This document shows positions 4,694-50,059 of a DNA stretch of 64,000 nt, piece by piece. Positions within the stretch are counted from its first letter, which is position 1. Each line of letters opens with the position of its first letter. This stretch comes from Haloarcula rubripromontorii (lineage in GTDB: Archaea > Halobacteriota > Halobacteria > Halobacteriales > Haloarculaceae), in assembly GCF_001280425.1 (NCBI RefSeq), contig NZ_LIUF01000001.1, positions 662,945 through 726,944 on the forward strand. The letters are read 5' to 3'. Both the position numbers and the translations under genes were made by a program. The notes under the pieces were generated by a model, which was given only the letters and a program-made list of their open reading frames with translations, was not told the origin of the DNA and ran no database searches.

Positions 4694-5554
4694 ATGCCGA
4701 CGTTTACCGCCCGACTGGCCGACGGCTGGAAGAGAACAGGCGAGAACATGTCGCTCATCCTAGTTCCAATACTGCTTGGGGTCATGCAGACGGACAGTAT
4801 CCGGCAAATACTCGCCTACGACGGGGTTCACATCGGCGTCAAGTTCGGTGTCCCTGCGTCCGTTGTGACTATCTGGCAGTTCGTGAGTCTACCCGGCAGC
4901 GGTGTCACGGCAAATACTGGCCTCCCACTGTCGGCCGCGTTTGCGATGATAATCATACCGGGTGTGATATTGCTACGTGCCGGGCTGAGTGCGGGGTACT
5001 TCGGGACAATCGCCGCAGAACTCCTCGATCGTCACGAGGGCTTTGCGATGAGTGCGCTGACCTACTTTGTCCCGTTTCTGGTGATAACTGCCCTCCCGTA
5101 CGTTGTTCTCGTCCCACTGGCACTGGGGCTGTTTGGCTTCGGGAGCCTCGGTGACGAGGGCGCTGTACTCCTTTTGATTCCAGCGTTCATCGCCGCCGGG
5201 TACCTGTTCTGGGCCACGCCGTATTTGATTGTCCTGCGCCGGACTGGGCTGGTGGCAGCGGCCAGGGGATCGTACAAACTGGCCGTCGACGGTGGGGCGT
5301 ATCTCTCCTACACAATCGGCTACGTGGCGTTCGTTTTCTTCGCCTCAGTGATTACGACCGCTGTCGTGGTCAACGTTCCCGCGGTCGGCATCCCTTTCGG
5401 AATCCTGGCTGGGGGATTTGTAGGACTGACCCTCAACATCACGACGATGCGGTTCGTCGCTGACATCGACCCGGAATCGCCGTGCGCTGGCGAATGGCCG
5501 GCCCAGCACCGCAGCGATGGGGCTGCCGTTAGCAAGGAAGAAGCTGCACCTTAG
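4694..5554 (+). CDS. Multi-pass membrane protein (DUF7847-like)
   Basis: A membrane protein of about 286 residues with some six hydrophobic segments, resembling haloarchaeal proteins related to the glycerophosphodiester phosphodiesterase membrane domain. The cytoplasmic N terminus MPTFTARLADGWKRTGENMS is followed by helices with short loops, and a MRFVADIDPESP tail lies outside the membrane core. ATG 4694 is chosen; an in-frame GTG at 4670 would add eight residues. A possible box A (CATATGCTA) is at 4549-4557. The stop overlaps the stop of the convergent HAD gene by 3-4 nt. Function unknown. Confidence 0.65.
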   Translation: MPTFTARLADGWKRTGENMSLILVPILLGVMQTDSIRQILAYDGVHIGVKFGVPASVVTIWQFVSLPGSGVTANTGLPLSAAFAMIIIPGVILLRAGLSAGYFGTIAAELLDRHEGFAMSALTYFVPFLVITALPYVVLVPLALGLFGFGSLGDEGAVLLLIPAFIAAGYLFWATPYLIVLRRTGLVAAARGSYKLAVDGGAYLSYTIGYVAFVFFASVITTAVVVNVPAVGIPFGILAGGFVGLTLNITTMRFVADIDPESPCAGEWPAQHRSDGAAVSKEEAAP

Positions 5555-6807
5555 CCCCCCTGCTCGTCCAGTTGCTCGATGAGGCTGATCCCGTAGACAG
5601 TCCGCAGGACCGTGCTGGCGTCGCCGGCCTCGTACACCAGATCGTCGCGCGAACTGACGTGATCGAGTACGTCGGGCGAGGAATGTGCGGGGGCGGCGGC
5701 GATACCGGCGTCGTTGTCGTCGATCCAGCGCATCACCCGCAGGTCGCTCTTGCTGTCGCCCATCACGAGCGCGAACGGGTCGTCGATGCCGAGCACGTCG
5801 AAGGCCTCCTCGACGCCGGCGGACTTGTCCAGTTCGAGGCTCACGAGTTCGGCCGCATCGCCCTCGTAATAGCCGAGGTCGACGCGTTCGAGGACCTCGC
5901 GGAACGCCGCAGGCGCGTCGTCGATGTCGGCATCGGTCGACAGGTCGCCCGCCTCCAAGACGTCGAGAATCTCCGGGTCACGGCTGAAGTAGGCCCGTGC
6001 GTACGCTGCCGGGTCCGACACGTCAGCATCGACCTGCCCCGCGATAGCGTCCCCGACCAGCCCACAGAGGTACCGCAGGGACTCGTCGATGATTTCCACG
6101 GCGTTGTCGCTGCCGACCTCGGCGTTGGGCTTGAGCGTGACGTTGAACTCGTTGCCCTGGAGGTGACAGCGCTTGCCGACGGCCTCGGGAGCCTCAGAGA
6201 GGACACGGCGGCGGACCGACTCGAACACGTCCACGACCGTGCCGTCGAGGCGTTCATACAGGAGTCGCTTCGTGTCCGCGCCGTGTTTGGGCGTGAACAC
6301 GCCGTTGCCGGACTCGTAGACGATGCTCATCCCCCCGGAGGAGACGAGGTCGTTGCCAAGGCCCTGTATCATGAACCCCTTGACGTTCTCTAAGGTCTGG
6401 CCGGTGCAGACGACGATGGGGACGCCTGCTTCGTGGAACTGTGTCAGGAGGTACAGCGTGTCGCGTGGGATTTCGTTGTCGGTGTCGCCAGCCGACCGGA
6501 GCGTCTCGTCGACGTCCAGCACGAGGACGTTCACCGACCGGTCGTACTTCGAATAGAGGTCGAGCGCGGTGAAGGCCTCGTCGCGGGTCAGCCGGGCCGC
6601 GATTTCCGCGTAGGTCTCGCCGGTCCCGGAGAATTCCTCGGTGATGTCGGCCTTGAGATCGTCGAGGCGGTCACTGGCTGTCTCCCACTGTTCCAGCGCG
6701 ACGGTCGAACTGAGCGGGGGGAACAGGTCGACGAACTCCTGATAGCCCCGCAACGTTGTCGTGTCTACGCTCTTGTAGAGGCGGTATAGTTGGTCGTATT
6801 GTTCCAT
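5551..6807 (-). CDS. HAD-superfamily phosphatase
   Basis: Predicted Mg-dependent phosphohydrolase of about 418 residues. The HAD motifs are clear: motif I VLDVDETLR (nucleophile and acid Asp), motif II VVCTGQT, motif III Lys in ELDKSAG, motif IV LVMGDSKSDLRVM. A helical N-terminal extension of about 85 residues precedes motif I, and a long cap lies between motifs II and III, as in the Cof/phosphomannomutase-like IIB class. The substrate may be a sugar phosphate, but this is inference. A box A around 6847-6855 also fits an in-frame GTG start at 6819, so the N terminus could be four residues longer. Confidence 0.75.
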   Translation of the reverse strand: MEQYDQLYRLYKSVDTTTLRGYQEFVDLFPPLSSTVALEQWETASDRLDDLKADITEEFSGTGETYAEIAARLTRDEAFTALDLYSKYDRSVNVLVLDVDETLRSAGDTDNEIPRDTLYLLTQFHEAGVPIVVCTGQTLENVKGFMIQGLGNDLVSSGGMSIVYESGNGVFTPKHGADTKRLLYERLDGTVVDVFESVRRRVLSEAPEAVGKRCHLQGNEFNVTLKPNAEVGSDNAVEIIDESLRYLCGLVGDAIAGQVDADVSDPAAYARAYFSRDPEILDVLEAGDLSTDADIDDAPAAFREVLERVDLGYYEGDAAELVSLELDKSAGVEEAFDVLGIDDPFALVMGDSKSDLRVMRWIDDNDAGIAAAPAHSSPDVLDHVSSRDDLVYEAGDASTVLRTVYGISLIEQLDEQGG

Positions 6808-42032: not shown

Positions 42033-43928
42033 TCAGTCGTCGCCCGGCTCAACCGCGCCGGCGCGACCACGGTCACGGACCGTACTGATGTTGTCGTAGC
42101 CTTTCTTGACCAGCGCCAGCGCGAGACCGATGAGGACCAGCGCCAGCACCATCTGAACGGTCGAGGAGGCGATCGCCGCAGTGCCCTCGGCACCGCCCTG
42201 GATGAGGTTCTGGTAGAGGTTGCTGTAGAACGCCAGCCAGGACAGCCCCAGGATGGTGATAGTCGTCATAATCGCCATCGGCACGCCCGTGGAGTACAGC
42301 TGCTTGCTGTCGTCCCAGTTGGCGAGCCAGACGGTCGCAGTGAGCAGCGCCAGCGCGGCCAGCAGCTGGTTCGCGCCGCCGAACAGGGCCCACAGGGTGA
42401 GCCACTCGCCGGAGATGACCATCAGATAGGCCGGGATGGCCTGGACGAGCGGATTCGTGTAGCGGCCACGACCGATCTCGCCGAGGGTCGAACGGATGCC
42501 GCCGCCGACGTTGAAGCCGGAAGCCGTCTCGCCCGCCCGAAGCCCGACGATTTCCTCCATCATGTAGCGACCGAGTCGGACGGCCGTGTCAGTCGAGGTC
42601 AGCAGGAAGCTCACCAGCACGAGCGCCATGAACGGCGCGCCGAAGCTCTGTGGGACGCCGAGGCTGGTGAAGATGATGCCGCCACCCGTCGCAAAGTTCG
42701 GCAGCGCAGCACCGATGCCACCGGCGGGGTCGGCGAAGCCGGCCACGGCGAGCGTCGACAGCGCGACGGCGGCCAGCAGCCCCTCGCCGAGCATCCCGCC
42801 GTAGCCGATGAGGCGGGCGTCGGTCTCCTTGTTCAACTGCTTGGCTGTCGTCCCGGAGGACACCAGCGAGTGGAAACCACTGATGGTCCCGCAGGCGATG
42901 GTGATGAACAGCAGCGGGAACAGCGGCGCGAGGCCCGCGCCCTCGACACCCCAGAAGCCGTTGAACGCGCCCATCGAGTCCGCGATGACCAGCGAGCCGC
43001 TCTCGGTAGCAGCCGTGCCGAAGATCGTGCCGACGATGACGGCTACCAGCGAGCCGCCGACGCCGGCGTACAGCAGGAACGACGACAGGTAGTCACGCGG
43101 CTGGAGCAGCACCCACACCGGGAGCGCGCTCGCGATGCCCGCGTACACCATGATTATCGGCACCCACGCCGCACGGTTGGGGTTCATCGCCGTCGCAGAG
43201 GAGCCGGGTATCCACTGCCCGCTGCCGAGGTTCAGCACGTCCGCGAGAACGAGCGTGCCTGCGGGGTAGCTCGCGTCACCGACAGCCGGGAACAGCGCGA
43301 ACGGGTACTGGATGCCCGCGTACACGCCGGCGAACACCAGGGCCACGAACACGACGGTCCCGGGAAGGAACGGCCCGTTCAGCTGGTAGAGGTACACCCC
43401 CAGCAGGAACGCCAGCGCGATGTAGACGAAGCTCGCGGTGGTCACCTGCGGGAACGCGTCGAACACGATGGCGACCACCAGCGCGAACACCGCGACGACG
43501 AGGATGATGGTGAGGAAGGCGAACCACAGCAGCATGTTCTTGCCTCCCTCCCCGATGTACTCACCGATGATGTAGCCGATGGACTTCCCCTCGTGTCTGA
43601 GTGAGCCAGACAGCGAGACGAAGTCGTGGACGCTGCCCATCAGCGGGTTGCCGATAGCAATCCACAGAAGTGCGGGAACCCACCCCCACACGGCGCCTGC
43701 TGTAATCGGTCCCACAATCGGTGCCCCACCCGCAATACTGGAGTAGTGGTGGCCGAGCAACACCGGCTTCTTCGACGGGACGTACTCCTGCCCGTCCTCG
43801 TATTTGTGCGCCGGTGTCTCGTTGTCGTCGTCGAGTTCGAGGAACCGTGCGAGGTACTTCGAATACCCCAGATACCCCACGCTGAACGTCAGCAGTACTG
43901 CCAGAACGATCCAGATTACCTGTGTCAT
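42033..43928 (-). CDS. cstA: Carbon starvation protein CstA family peptide/pyruvate transporter
   Basis: A 631-residue membrane protein with around 16 helices. CstA proteins import peptides or, in E. coli BtsT, pyruvate. CstA traits include YLGYSKYLARFLELDDDNETP, LLGHHYSSIAGGAPIVGPIT (GHHFxSIAGAxPIVGP type) and GFHSLVSSGTTAKQLNKETD, SGEWLTLWALFGGANQLLAAL. An AT-rich leader with ATTATATATT at 43971-43980 and further AT boxes precedes the ATG at 43928, suggesting a well-regulated promoter. No CstA-linked small subunit is seen. Confidence 0.93.
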   Translation of the reverse strand: MTQVIWIVLAVLLTFSVGYLGYSKYLARFLELDDDNETPAHKYEDGQEYVPSKKPVLLGHHYSSIAGGAPIVGPITAGAVWGWVPALLWIAIGNPLMGSVHDFVSLSGSLRHEGKSIGYIIGEYIGEGGKNMLLWFAFLTIILVVAVFALVVAIVFDAFPQVTTASFVYIALAFLLGVYLYQLNGPFLPGTVVFVALVFAGVYAGIQYPFALFPAVGDASYPAGTLVLADVLNLGSGQWIPGSSATAMNPNRAAWVPIIMVYAGIASALPVWVLLQPRDYLSSFLLYAGVGGSLVAVIVGTIFGTAATESGSLVIADSMGAFNGFWGVEGAGLAPLFPLLFITIACGTISGFHSLVSSGTTAKQLNKETDARLIGYGGMLGEGLLAAVALSTLAVAGFADPAGGIGAALPNFATGGGIIFTSLGVPQSFGAPFMALVLVSFLLTSTDTAVRLGRYMMEEIVGLRAGETASGFNVGGGIRSTLGEIGRGRYTNPLVQAIPAYLMVISGEWLTLWALFGGANQLLAALALLTATVWLANWDDSKQLYSTGVPMAIMTTITILGLSWLAFYSNLYQNLIQGGAEGTAAIASSTVQMVLALVLIGLALALVKKGYDNISTVRDRGRAGAVEPGDD

Positions 43929-44100: not shown

Positions 44101-45075
44101 TCAGACGAACGTCGGCGCTTCGGCGTTCGTCTCGACGTCGAGTTCGGCGGCGACGTCTTCGAGCAGGTCGCCTTTCACCTCCGCCGTGCGGGTCGTAATT
44201 TCCGCGACCAGCGGCGGGGCGAGCGTCTCGCGGACCTCGCGGAGCCGCTCGTTCTCGGTGGCGACGCGGTCCCGGAGATACCGGGCCCCGCGGCCGTTCT
44301 CGTCGGGGTCCGGCTCGGGCGTGAGCTTGTTCGCGACGAGGCCCCGGACCGAGAGGTCCCGCTCCCGCATCTCGTCGATGGCGCGTCGCGTCTCGTTGAC
44401 CGAGAGTTGGTCAGGGTTGAGCACGAGGAAGAAGGCGGCGTCGGCCTGGAGCGCGCCGCCGGCGAACTCGAAGAACTCCTTGCGGTCCTGCAGGCGGGCC
44501 AGCACCGGGTCCCCGTCCATCACGCGCCGGGGCTCGTTGTTTCCGATGGCGGCCTTCTCGAAGAGGTCGATGCTCTTCTCGCGTTTGTGCATCAGGCGGT
44601 CTATCCACCCTTCGAGGAACTCCGGCAGGCCGAGCAAGCGGAGCGTGCTACCGGTCGGCGAGGTGTCGAAGACCACCCGGTCGTACGGGTCGGCGTTGCG
44701 CATCACGTCGACGAAGCGGTCGAACAGCGCCGACTCGTAGGCTCCGGGGGTCTGGTGGGCCATCTCCAGCTGCTGGTTTATCTCGTTGACCATCGCCGCC
44801 GACACCTGCTCCGAGAGGTCGTTGCGGATGCTGTCGAGGTGGCGCTGGCTCTCGGTCTCGGGGTCTATCTCCATCGCGTCGAGGCCGTCGATACCCTCGA
44901 CGGGTTCCGGATCGTCGCTGAACGACTGGTCGAACACGTCGGTGACGGAGTGAGCCGGGTCCGTCGAGACCACCAGCGTGTCCAGCCCCGCCCGCGCGGA
45001 CTTGACGCCGTAGGCACAGGAGACGGTGGTCTTGCCGACCCCGCCCTTGCCGCCGAAGAAGACGAACGGCTCCAT
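44101..45075 (-). CDS. ArsA/Get3-family ATPase
   Basis: A 324-residue SIMIBI ATPase. The deviant P-loop FFGGKGGVGKTTVSCAYG with the extra signature Lys, switch I VSTDPAHSVTDVFDQ and switch II DTSPTGSTLRLLGLPEFL are typical of ArsA/Get3. The A-loop region LVANKLTPEPD is present. Family members drive arsenite pumps or deliver tail-anchored proteins; with no ars genes around and a single ATPase domain, the latter or another targeting role is more likely. ATG 45075 is overlapped by the TGA of the 98-residue gene upstream, so the two are coupled. Confidence 0.88.
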   Translation of the reverse strand: MEPFVFFGGKGGVGKTTVSCAYGVKSARAGLDTLVVSTDPAHSVTDVFDQSFSDDPEPVEGIDGLDAMEIDPETESQRHLDSIRNDLSEQVSAAMVNEINQQLEMAHQTPGAYESALFDRFVDVMRNADPYDRVVFDTSPTGSTLRLLGLPEFLEGWIDRLMHKREKSIDLFEKAAIGNNEPRRVMDGDPVLARLQDRKEFFEFAGGALQADAAFFLVLNPDQLSVNETRRAIDEMRERDLSVRGLVANKLTPEPDPDENGRGARYLRDRVATENERLREVRETLAPPLVAEITTRTAEVKGDLLEDVAAELDVETNAEAPTFV

Positions 45076-45371
45076 CAGAAGTGGTACTGCTGGCCCTTGC
45101 GTTCGATGTACGACCCGCGGTCCCACAGCCGCCGCTCCCAGGCCTCGAAGGTATCTTCGAGGTAGGGCAGCAGTTCGGCGGTGTAGTACGACACCGGCGA
45201 CGGGATGCCGAAGGCGTCGGGGAAACAGGCCAACATAAACGCGTCCTCGATGTCTTCGGCCTCCTTCTCGATTTTTTCGTAGGCCGGGTGCGTTATCATG
45301 CCGTGGTACAGTCCGCGCGCCCACTCCCGCAACGTCCGGCGAAAGCGCTCAATTCGGTCGGCCAGTTCCAT
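45075..45371 (-). CDS. Small protein coupled to the ArsA/Get3 ATPase
   Basis: A 98-residue soluble protein, helical at the start (MELADRIERFRRTLREWARG) and containing YEKIEKEAEDIEDAFMLACF and SYYTAELLPYLEDTFEAWER. No membrane helix or metal site is evident. Its TGA overlaps the ATPase start by one base, so both proteins should be made in fixed ratio. I do not recognise the family; a role as adaptor or client-binding partner of the ATPase is inference from this arrangement. A box A, GCTTTTACT on the minus strand at 45399-45407, fits a leaderless start. Confidence 0.7.
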   Translation of the reverse strand: MELADRIERFRRTLREWARGLYHGMITHPAYEKIEKEAEDIEDAFMLACFPDAFGIPSPVSYYTAELLPYLEDTFEAWERRLWDRGSYIERKGQQYHF

Positions 45372-45516: not shown

Positions 45517-46791
45517 ATGCACGACACCATTCCCGTCACGATTCTCTCGGGGAGCCTCGGGGCCGGGAAGACGACGCTGCTGAACCACCTGCTGACAGAA
45601 GCCGGCGACCGCGATATCGCCGTCCTCGTCAACGACATGGGGACGGTCAACGTCGACGCCGAACTCATCGCGGAGGGGTCAGAACTGGACGTGGACGACG
45701 GCGTCGCGGAGCTGTCGAACGGCTGTATCTGCTGTGAACTGCAGGACGACCTCGAAACCGCGGTCGTCCGGCTGGCGAACGACCGGGACTTCGACGCGCT
45801 CGTCGTCGAGTCCTCCGGCATCTCCGAGCCGGCTCCTGTGGCGCGGCTGTTTACCACCGAGTCGCGAGTGGCCGCACTCTACCGGGTCGACACGCTCGTG
45901 ACGGTGCTGGACACCAGGCTGTTCCTCGACGCCTTCGCCGGCGAGACGCCCGAGCGCCGAGGGGCCGTAGAGGCGAGCGCCGACGAGGACGGCGACGACG
46001 CGGCGGCCGCCGACGCCGACCGCCCGCTCTCGGATTTGATGGTCGAACAGGTCGAACTCTCGAACGTCGTCCTGTTGAACAAGGCGGACCTCTGTTCCGA
46101 CGCGGAACTCGACGAGGCCGAGGAGCTGGTGCGGGCGCTCCAGCCCGACGCCGAGACGGTCCGCACGACCTTCTCACAGGTCGACCCCGACCGGCTGTTC
46201 GACCGCGGGCTGTTCGACCAGCACGAAATCAACGACCTGCCGGGCTGGAAGCGAGCGCTGGCCGAGGCCGGGCACAGCCACGGCGGGGACGGCCACGATG
46301 GCGAGGGCGATGTGGACGACACCGGCCACCACGACCACCACCACCCCGAGGATGTGTACGGCGTCACCTCCTTCACCTACCGCCGCCGCCGGCCGTTCCA
46401 CCCCGAGCGGCTCGCCGAGGCGCTGCGGGACCTGCCGGCGAGCGTCGTCCGCTCGAAGGGGACCGTCTGGCTGGCGGGCACCGACTGCCGCGTCGTCGTC
46501 GGGCAGGCCGGCCCGTCGATACGGGCGGAGGCCCAGGGGCCCTGGATTGCGAGCCTCCCCGAAGTCGAGCAGGACATGTACCGCTCGAACCGGCCGAACC
46601 TAGACTGGCACGACGAGCACGGCGACCGCCGGACGGAACTGGTGTTCATCGGGACGGAGTACGACGAGGACGCCATCCGGGCGGCGCTCGACGACGCGCT
46701 GGTCACGGACGAGGAGTGGACGGACGGCGGGTCGCCGACGGGTCCGTTCCCGTCGGAACAGGGTGAGGAGACGGTGATTCGGAGCCCCTAG
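45517..46791 (+). CDS. CobW/COG0523-family metal-chaperone GTPase
   Basis: A 424-residue G3E GTPase that loads metals such as zinc, nickel or cobalt into proteins. The N-terminal Walker A ILSGSLGAGKTTLLNHLL, the metal-binding NGCICCELQDD (CxCC), the VVESSGISEPAP and the NKADLC guanine motif are all present. A His/Asp-rich loop, GHSHGGDGHDGEGD and HHDHHHPED, lies before the C-terminal CobW_C domain (VTSFTYRRRRPFHPERL), a typical metal-storage segment. The metal cannot be told. Its stop overlaps that of the convergent zinc-ribbon gene. Confidence 0.92.
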   Translation: MHDTIPVTILSGSLGAGKTTLLNHLLTEAGDRDIAVLVNDMGTVNVDAELIAEGSELDVDDGVAELSNGCICCELQDDLETAVVRLANDRDFDALVVESSGISEPAPVARLFTTESRVAALYRVDTLVTVLDTRLFLDAFAGETPERRGAVEASADEDGDDAAAADADRPLSDLMVEQVELSNVVLLNKADLCSDAELDEAEELVRALQPDAETVRTTFSQVDPDRLFDRGLFDQHEINDLPGWKRALAEAGHSHGGDGHDGEGDVDDTGHHDHHHPEDVYGVTSFTYRRRRPFHPERLAEALRDLPASVVRSKGTVWLAGTDCRVVVGQAGPSIRAEAQGPWIASLPEVEQDMYRSNRPNLDWHDEHGDRRTELVFIGTEYDEDAIRAALDDALVTDEEWTDGGSPTGPFPSEQGEETVIRSP

Positions 46792-48153: not shown

Positions 48154-48525
48154 TCACTCCTGCTCGTAGGGATGGACGTCGTCCACCGCAGGCGCGCCGA
48201 CGACGAGTGTCCGTACGGGCTCAGTCGCCGATTCAGGGTTGTGCGCCCGCTGGGGACTGTCCGGTTCAACGACAAAGGCTTCGTCTTCGTCGACCTCGTA
48301 TGTCCCTTCGGGCGTCTCGACGGCGAGCGTTCCCGAGAGGACGTAAAACAGTTCCTCCTGGTCGTCGTGGTAGTGGTACGCGAGCGGGATGTCCTCGCCG
48401 GGGGCGACCTCGTAACGATTTACCGCGGCGTTTTCCAAGCCGGCCGCGTCGCTGAGAGAACGCTGGACGCTGGGTCGGTCCGGTGTCGGTTCGATGTCGT
48501 CGACCGCGAGATGATGATATCCCAT
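48154..48525 (-). CDS. Cupin-domain protein
   Basis: A 123-residue single cupin. The two cupin motifs are visible: the first as PLAYHYHDDQEELFYVLSGT and the second as EDEAFVVEPDSPQRAHNPES, with His and Glu ligands for a metal. The N terminus (MGYHHLAVDDIEPTPDRPSV) is typical of a haloarchaeal cupin group. The reaction is unknown; sugar isomerase or dioxygenase activity is possible. It lies between a small membrane gene and a CNNM transporter. Confidence 0.85.
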   Translation of the reverse strand: MGYHHLAVDDIEPTPDRPSVQRSLSDAAGLENAAVNRYEVAPGEDIPLAYHYHDDQEELFYVLSGTLAVETPEGTYEVDEDEAFVVEPDSPQRAHNPESATEPVRTLVVGAPAVDDVHPYEQE

Positions 48526-48575
48526 GTCATCCCTATCGATGTCGACCGACGTAAAACGACTGCTACCGCGAGGTC

Positions 48576-49961
48576 TCAGTCCGAGGCTTCCTCGGCGTCG
48601 ACCGGCTCCGTCGCGTCGGTTTCGAGGCGGACGACGCGAGCTTTCATGATGCGCGTGTTCTCGACCTGTTCGACGCGGATCTCGACGCCATCGTAGGTGA
48701 TGGTCTCGCCCTCCTCGACCAGTCGGCCCGCCCGGTTGAAGATGAAGCCGGCGATGGTCTCGAACTCCTCGCCCTCCGGGAGGTCTAAGTCCAGCGCCTC
48801 GTTGACCTCCTCGATGTTGACCTCGCCTTTGACCGTCACGGTGTCGTCGTCGACGTACTCGATTGGCTCTTCCTCCTCGCCTTCGAGTATCTCGCCGACG
48901 ATCTCTTCGGTCAGGTCCTCCATCGTCACCAGTCCCTCGGTTGTCCCGAACTCGTCGATGACGATGACCATGTGCAGGCGCTCGGCCCGCATCTCGGTCA
49001 GCAGGTCGTCGACGTTCTTCGATTCGGGGACGTGCAGCGTCGGCTCGATGAGGTCCTCGAGTTCCATGTCGCGGGCCAGCGCCTCGCCGTAGTTGAGGTC
49101 CCGAACGAGGTCACGGATGTGGATGACGCCGATGACGTTGTCCAGACTTCCCTCGTAGACGGGGATGCGGGCGTGGCCGCTCTGGATACAGGTCTCCAGC
49201 GCTTCCTCGACGGAGGCCTCCTTGGCGACGGCGGTCATGTCCAATCGCGGCGTCATCACCTCTTTGGCGATGGTATCGTTGAACCGGAGCGTGCGCTGGA
49301 GCATCTCCCGTTCGTCCTCGTCGAGGACGCCCTCGCGCTCACCCGTCTCGATGATGTCCTGTATCTCTTCGCGGGTGACATAGGAGGTCTCGATTGCGGA
49401 GCGGCCCCCAGTGATTTTGTTGACGACGCGAGTGAGGTAGTCGAACAACAGAATGAGCGGGAGCAGCACCTTCTCGGCGGCCTTGAGCGGCTTGGAGATG
49501 CGCAGCGCCCACGATTCTGTGTTCTCGACCGCGTAGCTCTTTGGCGCGCTCTCGCCGAACAGCAGCACGATAGCGGTGATACCGAACGTCGCGACCGCGA
49601 CAGCTTGCCCCTGAGAGAGATAGAGTGCCAGCAGCCCGGTCGCGATGGAAGACATCGCGATGTTGACGAGGTTGTTCCCGACGAGAATCGTCACGAGCAG
49701 GCGGTGCGGGTCCGCCTTGAGTTGCTTGAGCGTCCTCGCGCCCGGGACGCCGTCCTCAACGAGGGCCTCTGTCCGGTGTGCGGGCAGCGAGAACATAGCG
49801 ATCTCCGAAGACGAGAAGAACGCCGACAAGATGATGAGGAAGACGATAACGGCGGTGCCACCGACTAGCACCACGGTTTGGGGTATCGTGACGCCGGCGT
49901 ATTCGATAGCCTGCAACATCGCTGTAGACAGCTCAAACGGCGCAGGTGGATCCAGGGCCAT
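48576..49961 (-). CDS. CNNM/CorC-family membrane protein with CBS domains
   Basis: A 461-residue protein of the hemolysin C/CorC/CNNM type, implicated in Mg2+ or Co2+ efflux. The order is an N-terminal DUF21 membrane domain of about four helices (AVIVFLIILSAFFSSSEIAMF, LVTILVGNNLVNIAMSSIAT), a CBS pair (MTPRLDMTAVAKEASVEEAL and LIEPTLHVPESKNVDDLLTE with GHARIPVYEG and MHMVIVIDEFGTTEGLVT-like strands) and a C-terminal CorC_HlyC domain. The start at 49961 is supported by a box A near 49988-49995 for a leaderless mRNA. Single gene. Confidence 0.9.
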   Translation of the reverse strand: MALDPPAPFELSTAMLQAIEYAGVTIPQTVVLVGGTAVIVFLIILSAFFSSSEIAMFSLPAHRTEALVEDGVPGARTLKQLKADPHRLLVTILVGNNLVNIAMSSIATGLLALYLSQGQAVAVATFGITAIVLLFGESAPKSYAVENTESWALRISKPLKAAEKVLLPLILLFDYLTRVVNKITGGRSAIETSYVTREEIQDIIETGEREGVLDEDEREMLQRTLRFNDTIAKEVMTPRLDMTAVAKEASVEEALETCIQSGHARIPVYEGSLDNVIGVIHIRDLVRDLNYGEALARDMELEDLIEPTLHVPESKNVDDLLTEMRAERLHMVIVIDEFGTTEGLVTMEDLTEEIVGEILEGEEEEPIEYVDDDTVTVKGEVNIEEVNEALDLDLPEGEEFETIAGFIFNRAGRLVEEGETITYDGVEIRVEQVENTRIMKARVVRLETDATEPVDAEEASD

Positions 49962-49987
49962 CAACGGTCGAAGTTGTAATGGGCAGG

Positions 49988-49995
49988 GATTAAGG
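49988..49995 (-). promoter_or_regulatory. Box A of the CNNM/CorC gene
   Basis: CCTTAATC on the minus strand lies about 30 nt upstream of ATG 49961. It argues against the longer in-frame start at 50003, which would be within this box's upstream region. Confidence 0.55.
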
Positions 49996-50059
49996 CTTGT
50001 CATGAAGGGGTCGCCAGCGAAGCCCTTACCCGGCTTTCACGCGTACCGTCCCACAGAGT

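Follow-up and report, generated by a model that had tools for sequence, protein, structure and literature searches.

The locus lies on the minus strand of a 64,000-nucleotide stretch of Haloarcula rubripromontorii DNA (hereafter, the window), where an open reading frame for a 98-amino-acid small protein (positions 45075-45371) is followed by a gene for a 324-amino-acid single-domain ATPase of the ArsA/Get3 fold (44101-45075). The two genes are joined by a TGATG stop/start overlap (45073-45077, minus strand), in which base 45075 is common to the TGA of the small gene (45075-45077) and the ATG of the ATPase gene (45073-45075). The unit is larger than these two genes (44101-45371). The next minus-strand gene after the ATPase, across a gap of 172 bases, encodes a CstA transporter (42033-43928; PF02554, 6.6e-129), which family match, proximity and co-occurrence identify as the third member. 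No arsenic genes turned up among the neighbouring genes that were tested in the interval from 38.7 to 50.0 kb; apart from CstA, these neighbours comprise a CobW/ZigA-like GTPase, PHO4, DUF6517, a cyclase/START-type protein, a cupin and a CNNM/CBS protein, together with three open reading frames without a Pfam family. The divergent upstream neighbour on the opposite strand (45517-46791) is a CobW-family GTPase resembling the zinc chaperone ZigA (331 bits against a cut-off of 600), and the cupin and the CNNM/CBS/CorC-type membrane protein lie near the operon at 48154-50003.

Nearly the full length of the ATPase is covered by one domain, which matches ArsA_ATPase in Pfam (9.8e-65) and TIGR00345 GET3_arsA_TRC40 in NCBIfam (1.8e-67). 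The enzyme carries the nucleotide motifs GGKGGVGKTT (Walker A, residues 8-17; 45025-45054, minus strand), STDPAH and DTSPTG (a DTAP-type motif, residues 137-142; 44650-44667, minus strand), and residues 8-16 of the Walker motif are invariant in both alignments made (A5 and A6). The AlphaFold2 model (pLDDT 87.7) is closest to the archaeal TRC40 structure 3zq6 (Z 28.6, rmsd 2.7, 271 residues), with Get3 and ArsA structures next. An earlier sequence-only reading of this DNA had described a one-base gene overlap, a single ATPase domain with complete motifs and a neighbourhood free of arsenic genes, and all three descriptions hold, the last within the neighbours tested.

That reading had also called the small protein unrecognised, which is accurate as far as Pfam goes, where no family reached its cut-off and only weak sub-cut-off matches to cytochrome b559 and GvpG appeared, but not for NCBIfam, where it matches NF041419 'cory-CC-star' (3.2e-15, 55.9 bits, under the 80-bit cut-off). 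On the strength of this homology, which spans residues 21-82, the small protein can be placed as a distant relative of the cory-CC-star proteins of bacteria, and like them it adjoins an ArsA-type ATPase; the archaeal members differ in scoring under 80 bits and in ending with (Q)YHF or other residues instead of CC. The window copy and 57 bacterial relatives share thirteen invariant residues (D43, F45, G55, P57, P59, T64, E66, L67, P69, F75, W78, R81 and S87). Conservation is high within the haloarchaea as well: at ten loci from eight families, identity to the window is 59-85 percent for the small protein and 61-81 percent for the ATPase, the small protein being at least as conserved as the ATPase in most of them.

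The AlphaFold2 model of the small protein predicts helices at residues 3-27, 29-49 and 61-85 with a modest mean pLDDT of 70, and the tail (88-98) is modelled below 50. Foldseek returned no fold match (best E 9.4), which says little at that pLDDT, and no related solved structure scored better than E 0.24. The tail nevertheless ends in a recurrent motif, given that the C-terminal QYHF of the window copy (45078-45089, minus strand) is shared by 47 of 53 distinct haloarchaeal copies, an HF end by 52 and a CC end by none, in a set of loci that favours relatives close to the window. In bacteria, all 80 copies collected end in CC, as did the search query itself. These conserved adaptor tails, CC in bacteria and (Q)YHF in haloarchaea, were noticed in the course of this analysis; conservation at the extreme end of a probably floppy segment suggests docking.

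The arrangement itself has been known since 2010, when Castillo and Saier reported operons in which an ArsA homologue accompanies CstA, CstX and, in some cases, CstY (PMC2963123). The available part of that paper places haloarchaea (Haloarcula marismortui, Haloquadratum, Natronomonas and Halorubrum) in its cluster 17, reports congruent trees, and proposes that CstX links ArsA to CstA and that ArsA energises CstA (PMC2963123). The window resembles those operons in combining a one-domain ArsA (about 330 amino acids there), a CstX of about 90 amino acids and a clustered CstA with no ars genes; at 324 amino acids the ATPase falls within the one-domain size of about 300-340 that characterises these ArsA homologues, and CstA is in the same gene cluster. 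By analogy of operon position, size and taxa, rather than by sequence comparison, the small protein would be the published CstX, and we use that name below. One feature differs, as the published CstX is given a single transmembrane segment (PMC2963123, in the part available), whereas in the window copy the peak mean hydropathy over 19 residues is only 1.0 (with 0.9 to 1.3 for three relatives), a low value for a transmembrane segment. In the literature searched, CstX appears together with CstA in PMC2963123 only, the name 'cory-CC-star' was not found, and neither was experimental work on the CstA-linked ATPase.

The same paper lists, in cluster 17, an odd 426-amino-acid ArsA of Haloarcula marismortui whose N-terminal extension resembles nothing known (PMC2963123, in the part available). 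In the window, the reading frame of the ATPase continues uninterrupted upstream, through the small gene (44101-45324, 407 amino acids from the first GTG), so that the published extension probably reflects a misplaced start.

We compared the distribution of the three genes over 242 haloarchaeal genomes. The small protein is matched in 186, the ATPase (E <= 1e-60) in 186 and CstA in 187; the small-protein and ATPase sets are identical, every one of these 186 genomes also has a CstA match, and the CstA set adds a single genome, G128, which has CstA (L091:4500-6350) and neither partner (Fisher 4e-54 for shared presence and absence, phylogeny ignored). In at least nine genera some species carry the complete trio while others carry no member of it, a pattern that suggests the genes were lost or gained together more than once. 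Where both places are listed, the small gene and the ATPase gene start no more than 1.2 kb apart in all 142 genomes, and the distance from the small gene to CstA is at most 8 kb in 117 of 119, the two exceptions (G005 and G202) having their listed CstA at a distance on the same contig. The pairing of small protein and ATPase is thus far beyond chance, and the pair almost certainly belongs to a CstA unit. Since the two almost always travel with cstA, they look like an ATP-using accessory part of CstA.

This distribution bears directly on the function that the sequence-only reading had suggested, namely general targeting of tail-anchored proteins by the ATPase, in which the small protein would be an archaeal GET partner. 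The ArsA/Get3 fold, the complete nucleotide motifs and the conserved small partner all agree with it. However, the ATPase is unmatched (E <= 1e-60) in 56 of the 242 haloarchaea, 55 of which also lack a CstA match. The Get3 CxxC is likewise missing from all 148 distinct CstX-linked ATPases (63 haloarchaeal, 7 other archaeal and 79 bacterial, one sequence falling in two groups), 147 of which extend at least 270 residues beyond the start of the Walker motif and are therefore long enough to reach the CxxC place. The same genome encodes two other Get3-like proteins (L004:1459-2388 and L005:1297-2388) that both have the CxxC, starting 249 and 285 residues beyond the Walker motif start. In a sample of 69 haloarchaea, 67 have a match to one of these paralogues; 19 of the sampled genomes are without the CstA set, and 18 of those have the match. 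With its CxxC missing and such a paralogue broadly present even in genomes without the CstA set, the CstA-linked ATPase is not an obvious housekeeping Get3; by sequence, the paralogues are the better archaeal Get3 candidates. Both paralogues have Met-rich stretches, and the one at L005 also has a Gly-rich insert.

The ATPase shares fold and nucleotide motifs with Get3/TRC40 but differs from it in the absent CxxC, in a distribution that tracks CstA, in bacteria as in haloarchaea, and in its dedicated small neighbour. The earlier suggestion is supported in that the ATPase has the small protein as its dedicated partner; the targeting role is not supported, with CstA as the third partner, and we regard it as highly improbable.

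Outside the haloarchaea the association persists with some variation. A search for NF041419 over 294 genomes of the phylum gave matches in 45, none above the 80-bit cut-off; nine of the matches came from genomes that do not belong to the haloarchaeal class, and several of these were weak. Six of the non-haloarchaeal loci (L069-L073 and L075) have cstA, the small protein and the ATPase in a row, in most cases with further small genes after the trio. At L069, which is from a non-halophilic archaeon, the operon continues (5164-6095) with an iron-sulphur-assembly-type PF01883 gene, open reading frames of like size are present at L070-L072, and a protein of about 190-220 amino acids without a Pfam family occupies the CstY position. 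A seventh locus (L077) has the small protein and the ATPase with a CstA open reading frame within the same stretch, and at two loci with weak small-protein matches (L074 and L076) the ATPase was not found by tblastn.

In bacteria, cstA, cory-CC-star and an 'ArsA family ATPase' are annotated together on Cytobacillus, Pseudochrobactrum and Paracoccus plasmids, and the haloarchaeal genes are homologous to those of such bacterial CstA-CstX-ArsA loci. Scanning named genomes gave 331 relatives, of which the 80 best were kept. The ATPase adjoins cory-CC-star in all 80 of these loci, and CstA is also in the locus in 42. Start-to-stop distances at 78 of the 80 bacterial loci were set aside, as taking the nearest start biases them toward overlap. 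The sequence-only reading had itself named a pair that is not conserved, or a small protein found mainly with other partners, as grounds for abandoning it; conservation over the haloarchaea was one check it proposed, and the adjacency in 142 of 142 haloarchaeal genomes and in the 80 bacterial loci kept runs the other way on both counts.

The remaining 38 of the 80 bacterial pairs, all labelled proteobacterial, are not beside cstA, in contrast to the published statement, as given in the available part of PMC2963123, that CstX never occurs in an operon without cstA. Among the 31 such genomes tested, 25 have CstA elsewhere, of the short type in 24 and only of the E. coli-like type in one (G483); CstA is absent from the other six, which are five metagenome-assembled genomes and one assembly of an uncultured isolate. 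A closer view comes from the order to which one of these genomes, G488, belongs. There, 18 of 76 genomes have a PF02554 match (six of the short type, six long and E. coli-like, six weak and partial), and CstX is present in four of the 76, all among the six with a short CstA and none among those with a long one (Fisher 1.2e-5).

A tree of CstA sequences was built from 92 rows, leaving out seven out-of-frame shadow open reading frames, one poor row and the short, YbdD-linked, 396-amino-acid sequence of L214. The YbdD-linked rows (four, one of them cut by a contig end) split from the CstX-linked ones (support 100). Bacterial CstAs from genomes that carry CstX elsewhere, 19 in number, nest inside the CstX-linked bacterial rows (support 99). 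Only these two placements are used, because support is weak at the deepest forks and the tree has long branches that meet.

An SNF (LeuT-type) transporter gene, found by tblastn with Pfam run on two loci, lies upstream of the pair, usually with ratA, in 32 of the 38 loci without CstA (e.g. L128:2756-5249), and we considered it as a second partner. A close relative occurs in eight of the 76 genomes of the G488 order, six of them without CstX and CstA, and is missing from two of the four CstX genomes. With the SNF relative occurring without the pair and the pair without SNF, this neighbourhood looks incidental.

What the pair might do for CstA can be approached from the E. coli protein, a proton-driven pyruvate transporter whose uptake depends on the proton gradient, according to the part of the source available (PMC7730263), and for which a small partner, YbdD, is reported in the available part of another source as required for pyruvate uptake (PMC5847655). 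YbdD (PF04328) resembles CstX in being a small protein encoded beside cstA and in its C-terminal RCC, comparable to the CC of bacterial CstX; it differs in going with another CstA branch and in lacking, in E. coli, an annotated ATPase gene as neighbour. Homology between the two was considered and rejected (one YbdD sequence compared by hhalign, with probabilities of 3.2 and 0.1 percent), and the common CC end may be convergence. YbdD scores 70 bits against NF033934 KCU-star, under the 85-bit cut-off; going by the family name, its selenoprotein kin would end in CU. The YbdD family gave no match in the 16 haloarchaeal genomes tested, including those of the window and G128. Six of 14 control genomes have CstA with no NF041419 match, and taken together with the dependence of E. 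coli CstA on the proton gradient this suggests that CstA proteins as a class do not need the pair.

Arsenite pumps provide the other comparison. As in ArsA/ArsB, an ArsA-family ATPase is encoded beside a membrane transporter; ArsB may also operate as a secondary carrier. The ArsA of the arsenite pump has two domains and belongs to an ars operon, while the ATPase here has one domain and no ars genes among its tested neighbours. According to section 3.12 of PMC2963123, a source available in part, conservation of the three arsenite-related cysteines does not extend to single-domain ArsA homologues.

Taken together, we hypothesize that the pair is an accessory ATPase with its adaptor, CstX, that gates or energises the CstA transporter by a putative mechanism, a reading to which we give somewhat better than an even chance. 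By this mechanism, the helical CstX would dock the ATPase on the cytoplasmic side of CstA, possibly as a dimer by analogy with Get3, and the free C-terminal tail of CstX, (Q)YHF in haloarchaea and CC in bacteria, would form part of the contact. Binding and hydrolysis of ATP might then gate CstA or energise the uptake of pyruvate or a similar substrate, much as ArsA would do for ArsB; the substrate of CstA is a nutrient, probably pyruvate. No natural CstX-ATPase fusion turned up in a motif search of the loci, and phmmer (0.01) found no solved CstA structure. Against this reading stand the single haloarchaeon with CstA alone, the 38 of 80 bacterial pairs not beside cstA, the six of 31 genomes without CstA and a fold nearest to Get3/TRC40.

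The ATPase could work on transport as such or, instead, on the production or regulation of CstA, and we lean only barely, if at all, toward transport. As the fold is as Get3-like as it is ArsA-like, a biogenesis role limited to CstA has to be weighed, by which the ATPase and CstX would shield, insert or assemble CstA in a Get3-like manner and take no part in transport after folding. The closeness to archaeal TRC40/Get3 (Z 28.6), the overlap of the two genes and the fact that CstX and the ATPase are never found without CstA in the 242 haloarchaea would all fit such a dedicated factor. The missing CxxC speaks against it, though according to the available part of PMC10248533 some Get3 proteins are also without it. 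So may the composition of the 30 residues past the helix that precedes the Get3 hydrophobic insert, which in a crude count hold on average 1.83 Met and Phe residues in 63 haloarchaeal ATPases and 2.05 in 78 bacterial ones, against 4 and 5 in the paralogues. Moreover, CstA is a many-helix protein and not a tail-anchored client, and the CstAs of six control genomes occur with no NF041419 match. We consider biogenesis possible but unlikely.

A third view is that the ATPase and CstX act as a sensor, reporting nucleotide or carbon state and throttling CstA without powering it. It agrees with the proton-gradient dependence of uptake by E. coli CstA (PMC7730263, in the part available) and with regulation already operating on the gene in Haloferax volcanii, where, according to the available part of PMC6104027, cstA mRNA and translation are controlled by a ribosome-bound RNA. 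On the other side, neither the ATPase nor CstX has an extra sensor domain in Pfam or NCBIfam, and the nucleotide motifs are complete and invariant, neither of these being a strong point. In our judgement such a regulator is distinctly improbable.

Returning to the accessory ATPase with its CstX adaptor, we put forward a more general form of it as a speculation that we think rather unlikely to hold: a soluble ATPase of the Get3 fold might convert an ion-driven secondary carrier related to CstA into an importer that is driven or gated by ATP, by way of an adaptor whose last C-terminal residues would insert into a partner. Bacterial CstX (CC), haloarchaeal CstX ((Q)YHF) and the unrelated YbdD (CC, or CU) would then be interchangeable tail-docking solutions for CstA transporters.

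If the ATPase does act on transport, it would be a natural ArsA-type ATPase that drives or gates carbon uptake with no involvement of arsenic, and the haloarchaea would be a convenient testing ground for a proposal that has stood since 2010. Our main interest is in the proposed step by which CstA would be gated or powered through CstX, and in the conserved tails. A widespread ArsA/Get3-like gene is here set apart from both roles that its family names carry, arsenic efflux and general tail-anchored targeting, and setting it apart from them helps the reading of genome annotations.
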